NCBI GenBank assembly: GCA_902516065.1
Contig: CABXXB010000009.1
Span: forward strand, 1-32,091
Reading direction: 5' to 3'
Length of the DNA stretch: 32,091 bases
Origin: an uncultured Pelagibacteraceae bacterium
GTDB taxonomy: Bacteria > Pseudomonadota > Alphaproteobacteria > Pelagibacterales > Pelagibacteraceae
Positions 21,676-26,956 of this stretch are shown piece by piece; position 1 is the stretch's first letter, and every line of letters begins with the position of its first letter. Both the position numbers and the translations under genes were made by a program. Under the pieces are notes generated by a model, which saw nothing but the letters and a program-made list of their open reading frames with translations, was not told where the DNA came from and searched no databases.

Positions 21676-22038
21676 ATGAAGAAAATTTTTACATTAATTT
21701 TTTGTGTATTTGCGTTTAGTGCAATTGCAAAAGAAACAACTTTTAATAAAGAGTTATTTGATAAAGCCCAATTAGATGGCAAGGTTGTAATAGTTAGTTC
21801 TTGGGTAAAATATTGTACGTCTTGTGCAAGTCAAATGAAAGTTTTAGATAAAGCTAAAAATGATTTTAATAATATTGAATATTTTAAATTCGATGTAAGA
21901 AATAAAGAAATAGCTGATTTATTTAACATTCAATATCAAACAACTCTTTTAATTTTTAAAGATAATAAAGAAGTTTATAGAAGCATTGGTGAAACAAGTA
22001 GAGAAGCAATCTATAAAGCTATTAAATCTTCAATTTAG
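21676..22038 (+). CDS. Exported thioredoxin-like protein
   Basis: The 120-residue protein has a signal peptide (KIFTLIFCVFAFSAIAKE) and a thioredoxin-like domain with a CTSC redox motif (C47 and C50, in YCTSCASQMK), similar to the C-terminal domain of DsbD. It likely reduces or shuttles disulfides in the periplasm. The cis-proline region is YQTTLLIF instead of the canonical TP, which is unusual but occurs in this group. It follows proW after 8 bp. Its stop is 2 bp from that of the convergent gene. Confidence 0.75.
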   Translation: MKKIFTLIFCVFAFSAIAKETTFNKELFDKAQLDGKVVIVSSWVKYCTSCASQMKVLDKAKNDFNNIEYFKFDVRNKEIADLFNIQYQTTLLIFKDNKEVYRSIGETSREAIYKAIKSSI

Positions 22039-22791: not shown

Positions 22792-23294
22792 ATGGAACTG
22801 ATAAAATTTATAATTATATTTCTATTTTTACATTCATTTGCGTATGCAGATAAGAATATGAAAATTGGCTCTAAAGGCAAAGAAAGCGAAGTCTCACGTG
22901 TAGTTAAAGTTTTTATGTATGACAATTATTATGAGCCAAGTTCATTTCAAATTAAAGCCGGCGAAACGATAAAATTTGAAGTAGAAAATGCCGGTATGCT
23001 TGTTCATGAATTTAATATCGCAAATAAAATGATGCATATGAAGCATCAACCAGAAATGTTAAAAATGGTTGAAAATGAAATTCTTTTAGCTGACTCAATC
23101 GACAAAAAAAAATGAAAAAAATGGCAAAAATGGATAAAGCCATGGGTCACTCACATAGTAATAGTGTTTTACTTGAGCCAAAACAAAAGGGAGAAATAAT
23201 CTGGAAATTTGATAATGCAGTTGACATTGAAGTAGCTTGCAATGTGCCCGGTCATTATCAAGTTGGAATGATTGCTAAAGTTGATATAAATTAA
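22792..23294 (+). pseudogene. Cupredoxin gene split by a one-base deletion in a poly-A run
   Basis: Two frames together encode one exported type 1 copper protein. The first (22792-23115) has a signal peptide (IIIFLFLHSFAYAD) and a beta-sandwich N-terminus with a copper histidine in LVHEFNI (H72). The second (from 23112) has HSHSNSVLLEPKQKGEIIWKF and the copper loop EVACNVPGHYQVGM, providing Cys, His and Met. The frame is lost in a run of nine A (23104-23112), where ten would restore a continuous protein, and the ATGA overlap leaves a short restart. Possible explanations are mutation, RNA-polymerase slippage rescue, reinitiation or a sequencing error. DUF4396 follows directly. Confidence 0.8.
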
Positions 23295-23298
23295 CTTG

Positions 23299-23745
23299 AT
23301 GGACACTGCAGCTAAAGCTAATTTTCATTGGTCATGTAAACATACTTGGAAGAAAAGTGCTAAAAACACAGGTTGGTGTTTGTTGGGTTGTGCAATTGGA
23401 GATTTGGGTACAATTTTATTTTTCCAGCTTTCAAAAATTCCTTTTCCTATTTTAGGAATTATGACTTTAGCTATTATTAATGGTTTAATTACAAGTATCA
23501 CTTTAGAAACAATTATTTTGATGAGACAAAATTTTGATTTTTCTAAAGCTTTTAAAACAGCATTGGCTATGAGTTTTATTTCTATGATTAGTATGGAGAT
23601 AACAATGAACTTAACTGACTATTATCTAACAGGAGGTGCTACTTTGACATGGTGGGTTATTCCTATAATGCTTGGAGTGGGTTTTATAACTCCTTGGCCA
23701 TATAATTATTGGAGGTTAAAAAAATTTGGCATCAACTGTCATTAA
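23299..23745 (+). CDS. DUF4396 membrane protein
   Basis: The 148-residue protein has about four hydrophobic segments and the DUF4396 features: FHWSCKHTWKKSAKNTGWC near the N-terminus, GDLGTILFF, and TLTWWVIPIMLGVGFITPWPYNYWRL near the end. I chose ATG at 23299 over TTG at 23296; the two codons are adjacent. Family members often sit near copper genes, which agrees with the cupredoxin immediately upstream. Function is unknown. It overlaps the methyltransferase start by 20 bp. Confidence 0.8.
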   Translation: MDTAAKANFHWSCKHTWKKSAKNTGWCLLGCAIGDLGTILFFQLSKIPFPILGIMTLAIINGLITSITLETIILMRQNFDFSKAFKTALAMSFISMISMEITMNLTDYYLTGGATLTWWVIPIMLGVGFITPWPYNYWRLKKFGINCH

Positions 23746-26935: not shown

Positions 26936-26956
26936 TATCTGACACAATGTCAGATA
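26936..26956. promoter_or_regulatory. 21-bp inverted repeat over an ABC transporter start codon
   Basis: TATCTGACA (26936-26944) and TGTCAGATA (26948-26956) are perfect 9-bp arms around CAA. The ATG at 26947 starts on the last base of the loop. In RNA it would be a tight hairpin hiding the start; as DNA it is a plausible operator. No Shine-Dalgarno sequence is seen nearby. Confidence 0.5.

Follow-up and report, generated by a model that had tools for sequence, protein, structure and literature searches.

A split CopI-like cupredoxin gene in a Pelagibacteraceae draft genome: one gene with a private, probably technical, one-base break at a nine-A run

Two overlapping reading frames that meet at a run of nine A's encode the two parts of what looks like one copper protein in a Pelagibacteraceae genome. 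Are these frames two genes, one gene whose expression depends on slippage, a phase-variable switch, or one gene that has lost a base and, in the last case, was the base lost in the cell or in the data? The window (the whole stretch of DNA analyzed, 32,091 nucleotides) is contig 9 of the draft assembly referred to here as G000 (678 kb, 44 contigs, about 60% complete). The relevant features are as follows:

22792-23115, + strand: ORF1, the 5' part of a CopI-like cupredoxin gene, 107 aa, ending at the stop codon TGA (23113-23115)
23104-23112, + strand: the nine-A run, which is the break point, in the context GAC A9 TGA
23106-23115, + strand: A_AAA_AAA_TGA, resembling a -1 slippery heptamer followed by a stop, identified by sequence fit
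23112-23294, + strand: ORF2, the 3' part of the CopI-like cupredoxin gene, 60 aa, with an ATG at 23112
23296-23745, + strand: a DUF4396 gene, directly downstream, which adjoins the cupredoxin gene in 79 of 80 relatives' loci

Between positions 21676 and 24445, the gene order is thioredoxin-like (+), metallo-beta-lactamase-fold (-), cupredoxin (+), DUF4396 (+), and methyltransferase-like (+); the order around the cupredoxin gene is conserved in most of the 80 relatives' loci.

Two reading frames, one CopI-like cupredoxin

ORF1 comprises a signal-peptide-like N-terminus, the first cupredoxin strands, a His ligand (VHEFNI), and the first His/Met-rich stretch (MMHMKHQPEM). ORF2 has no signal peptide of its own and comprises a Met/His-rich segment, the last strands, and the Cys-His-Met copper loop (CNVPGHYQVGM). 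The break thus separates the copper His from the Cys-His-Met loop, as the sequence-only reading had proposed, and the predicted copper site is complete in neither product. In profile searches, ORF1 matched PF13473 (Cupredoxin_1) and the front of the CopI model NF051440 (positions 12-106), and ORF2 matched the back of the same model (positions 123-178). Together with the sequence and the ORFs themselves, these successive matches confirm that a cupredoxin is split at the nine A's.

CopI, known from Rubrivivax and Pseudomonas (NF051440 / NF047895), is a periplasmic green cupredoxin that functions in copper tolerance. An intact gene from a relative gave one continuous match to NF051440 (positions 16-178) with a score of 148 bits against a cut-off of 280, and scored 59 bits against NF047895, where the cut-off is 200. 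Because both scores lie below the NCBIfam cut-offs, the intact gene is best described, judging by its sequence, as related to CopI and not as a certified equivalog. The relatives' intact protein shares with CopI a signal-peptide-like start, the His-Cys-His-Met ligands, an internal His/Met-rich segment, and an alignment over almost the whole length. The gene studied here differs from CopI in its sub-cut-off score, in the lack of an N-terminal His-rich region, and in the one-base split.

The predicted structure of the intact protein from relative L223 is a confident cupredoxin fold (pLDDT 89.7). All of its best PDB matches are cupredoxins (4hcf, AcoP, auracyanin, and azurin), several of them copper-bound; a search of solved structures by sequence gave no match. 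The copper ligands H72, C150, H155, and M160 are invariant in 32 relatives. Mapped on the L223 model, the break point lies at residues 104-107, where a helical Lys/Met-rich insert begins; this insert separates the strand that carries the His ligand from the final strands, which carry the Cys-His-Met loop.

The gene is intact in relatives

Of the 399 genomes searched within the genus, many of them incomplete, 129 (about a third) yielded the cupredoxin gene, a count that is subject to this incompleteness. Among the copies listed, the gene is a single frame of ~165-200 aa, save for those in G000 and in genome G362, those cut by contig ends, and doubtful matches. The junction DNA was read in 109 loci from the genus search and 80 loci from the named collection, which correspond to 155 distinct Pelagibacteraceae genes. 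One open frame was seen in 153 of them. Twelve have ten A's in frame (GAY AAA AAA AAA ATG) and 141 have a shorter or interrupted run, most commonly AAA GAA AAA ATG; all of these are intact. The two split genes, from G000 and G362, each read GAY, nine A's, TGA. Breaks therefore occur only at nine-A runs and in none of the 141 genes with shorter or interrupted ones (Fisher p = 0.008).

The two-frame arrangement is thus not conserved. The sequence-only reading had named relatives with two clearly independent genes as the observation that would overturn it; with one frame in nearly all relatives, two independent adjacent genes are ruled out and what is seen is a single gene, split. This gene encodes a CopI-like periplasmic cupredoxin of about 167 aa and is called copI below.

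How the base was lost is less specific than had been supposed. The nearest gene (G408, L032/L214; 95.5% identity over the compared DNA positions) has the junction AAAAAGAAAATG (AAA AAG AAA ATG), and either loss of the G or a G-to-A change followed by loss of one A would yield nine A's. The earlier claim that an A is missing from the run is correct in that the run is one base short, but a lost G would do equally well. The accompanying claim that ten A's would restore the frame holds in nature: L223, the next nearest relative (94% DNA identity), has ten A's and one open frame of 167 aa.

ORF2 starts in the -1 frame relative to ORF1, and the two overlap by ATGA. This overlap had been read as a restart, but a base lost before "ATG A" automatically produces A-TGA, so designed translational coupling is ruled out; the same automatic effect is seen in G362 as ATGATAG.

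The split proteins of G000 and G362 are only ~53% identical and each has closer intact relatives, which implies two independent one-base changes. In G362, the split lies on contig 5 at 32390-32871 (L054:2391-2884), where the nine-A run is followed by TGATAG. Across the genus, the split was found in these two genomes only. The break is thus private to G000, with an independent parallel in the distant G362. No copies of the gene were found in viral contigs.

ORF2 differs from L223 by four synonymous changes and one nonsynonymous change, and from L214 by four and two, respectively. These counts point to normal purifying constraint on the downstream part, with no decay. The conservation rules out an ancient pseudogene; all the other readings, technical error included, predict such constraint. 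The lack of decay fits a gene that is really intact or was broken very recently.

Other frame breaks in the same assembly

We surveyed G000 for frameshifts by protein-to-DNA comparison of 616 kb with 1.12 Mb of relative G344. The aligned part amounted to 449 kb; about 167 kb of the surveyed sequence had no aligned counterpart and about 61 kb of G000 lay outside the survey. Five frame breaks were detected, four of them at A-runs: in copI, gyrA, folP, and a lolA-like gene. The gyrA gene is broken at ten A's (G000 contig 1, ~26940-26950; L174:6940-6950) where G344 has nine in frame; its product is 296 aa here and at least 850 aa in nearly all relatives listed, the shorter ones often lying near contig ends. 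The folP gene (dihydropteroate synthase) is broken near its 3' end at nine A's (contig 13, ~805-821; L125), giving 296 aa as compared with roughly 330-371 aa in most relatives. In the lolA-like gene (contig 21, ~1218-1240; L133), the frame is lost at nine A's that precede T6. For gyrA and folP, the sequences flanking the break both matched Pfam and NCBIfam models of these genes; for the lolA-like gene, one of the two flanks matched LolA. In other bacteria, gyrA, folP, and lolA are normally essential. The copI gene is intact in relatives, and genes of an essential type are broken at A-runs in the assembly in which it is split.

The fifth break, on contig 17 (~1356-1408), is not at an A-run. It affects a 724-aa-type gene, which by eye we take to be UvrB, with a ~52-base overlap, and it looks like a small duplication or an assembly join.

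The reverse survey of G344 (442 kb) revealed no break at a run of at least nine A's. In the single-contig genome G012 (282 kb aligned), there was one low-identity candidate break at a ten-A run, and in G362 (219 kb aligned), copI was the sole break. The difference in A-run breaks between G000 and G344 is four versus none (p about 0.03, on small numbers). The folP match in G012 (contig 1, 978432-979190) contains two in-frame TAA codons.

Origin of the missing base

We consider it probable that the missing base is a technical indel, introduced when a draft single-cell genome was amplified or assembled. One base would be missing from a slip-prone A-run within the Lys/Met-rich linker of the copI-like gene; the upstream frame would then meet TGA immediately, and the in-frame Met codon (ATG AAA) would mimic an overlapping start. 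The nearest relatives are single-amplified genomes by title, most of them named AG-/AH-... and assigned to Pelagibacteraceae (SAR11), and G000 is presumably one as well. That copI, gyrA, folP, and the lolA-like gene should all be broken in a living cell is implausible without rescue during decoding; the other possibility is homopolymer indels in the assembly. For single-cell workflows of this kind, a published benchmark gives 3.0 indels per 100 kbp (PMC6122165), so about 13 would be expected in the 449 kb aligned, which exceeds the number of breaks found. The pattern is that of homopolymer indels in single-cell assemblies: one-base changes in A-runs, several per assembly, with essential genes affected and relatives intact; the difference is that here it was deduced from sequence comparison. 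Counting A's in the raw reads, as the sequence-only reading suggested, would discriminate less well than it seems if G000 is a single-amplified genome, since an early amplification error would then sit in most reads.

Three points stand against technical error. The excess of broken A-runs in G000 relative to G344 is numerically modest. In G362, the parallel break stands alone within the 219 kb of that assembly that aligned. Finally, by analogy, real changes of this kind might be at work, since Buchnera and Blochmannia show real A-run frameshifts of a similar pattern (PMC3017870).

A real, recent one-base contraction in the lineage of the cell, inactivating the copper protein, is the less likely origin, although it has some evidence on its side. 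Homopolymers are prone to mutation; a ten-A relative exists in L223; the nine-A break arose independently in G362; and the presence of the gene in only 129 of 399 genomes, many of them incomplete, suggests that it is dispensable in the genus. On the other hand, the breaks in gyrA, folP, and the lolA-like gene would need a separate explanation, and the downstream part has not decayed as yet. For these reasons, the copI change is more plausibly technical than a fresh mutation in the cell. A generally useful control is to look for A-run breaks in gyrA and other essential genes of an assembly; where they occur, its A-run splits of accessory genes should not be taken as biology.

Slippage and the ordinariness of nine-A runs

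The nine-A run could also be real and be read through. RNA polymerase would add an A, or ribosomes would slip by -1 on A_AAA_AAA before the TGA, so that full-length cupredoxin would be made along with a truncated form, and gyrA and folP would be rescued likewise. We regard both the read-through and these products as improbable. It is true that bacterial RNA polymerase slips efficiently at nine A's or T's in vivo, as in Thermus dnaX (PMC5009743, PMC1088944), and that rescue is presumed for Blochmannia genes broken in this way (PMC3017870). In addition, the codons across the junction in the ORF1 frame (GAC AAA AAA AAA TGA) place the heptamer in the correct X_XXY_YYZ phase for a -1 shift, only one tRNA-Lys (UUU) was found in the 1.12 Mb of G344, and the downstream part is undecayed. 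However, the break is not conserved: in 153 of 155 relatives, the protein is encoded in one frame and needs no shift. Furthermore, shifting is weaker at A_AAA_AAA than at A_AAA_AAG (PMC5009743), RNA folding 3' of the run predicts only a weak hairpin (z -0.2 to -1.0) and no convincing stimulatory structure, and gyrA is open in nearly all relatives listed.

The genomic frequency of such runs also bears on this question. The window alone contains nine A/T runs of at least nine, and 206 sense-strand runs of exactly nine A's occur in the 536 kb of coding genes of G000, where permutation of synonymous codons within genes predicts 168; runs of at least nine A's number nearly 300. In the four genomes G000, G344, G012, and G362, nine-A runs are observed at 0.96-1.23 times the expected number and ten-A runs at 0.75-1.04 times; the ratio drops to 0.50-0.66 at eleven A's and to 0.21-0.45 at twelve and above. 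From these ratios, the lineage appears to select against A-runs only from about ten or eleven upward, with a sharp length threshold. In an AT-rich genome with strong slippage, nine-A runs are expected to be avoided (Baranov et al. 2005, PMC1088944); by this criterion, the lack of avoidance in coding DNA argues against strong slippage at nine.

In Buchnera and Blochmannia, real A-run frameshifts, some of them in important genes, have been attributed to rescue by slippage (PMC3017870). As in those poly(A) genes, here a one-base indel lies in at least nine A's of an A+T-rich genome, the frame is undecayed, and important genes are affected in the same assembly. By contrast, some of their frameshifts are shared between populations or species (PMC3017870), whereas the copI break is private to G000 and the gene is whole in its relatives. 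In Thermus thermophilus dnaX there are likewise nine sense-strand A's where slippage could shift the frame, but there slippage serves to produce a second, shorter protein of defined function, whereas the cupredoxin relatives make one product from one frame. No paper on SAR11 and transcriptional slippage was found in our literature search.

The proposal of an established slippage-expressed gene therefore does not stand: 153 of 155 copies can do without rescue, nine-A runs are not rare and show no avoidance, and the assembly breaks gyrA, folP, and the lolA-like gene in the same way. Rescue in G000 itself is possible, if weakly supported. The broader idea, that a streamlined free-living marine lineage tolerates A-run indels in essential and accessory genes through slippage or -1 shifting, seems very doubtful. 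So far, insect endosymbionts provide most of the described cases of such tolerance; real breaks here would extend slippage-tolerant decoding beyond endosymbionts to a group that ranks among the most abundant bacteria in the ocean.

The remaining suggestion is that replication slippage at the A-run switches the copper protein on and off (phase variation). This is highly implausible: nine- and ten-A alleles do both occur across the genus, but about 90% of relatives (141 of 155) have a shorter or interrupted run, which contradicts maintenance of a long tract, no other feature of a contingency locus was seen, and nothing singles out the copI run among the nearly 300 in G000. A one-base loss from an A-run in an A+T-rich draft genome can thus mimic a switch or a two-gene arrangement, ATGA overlap included. 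Since AAA makes up 86% of Lys codons, codon usage by itself predicts ten-A runs at Lys-Lys-Lys-Met sites; ten A's are found at 12 of roughly 18 intact all-Lys sites, close to the predicted fraction (0.86 cubed = 0.64).
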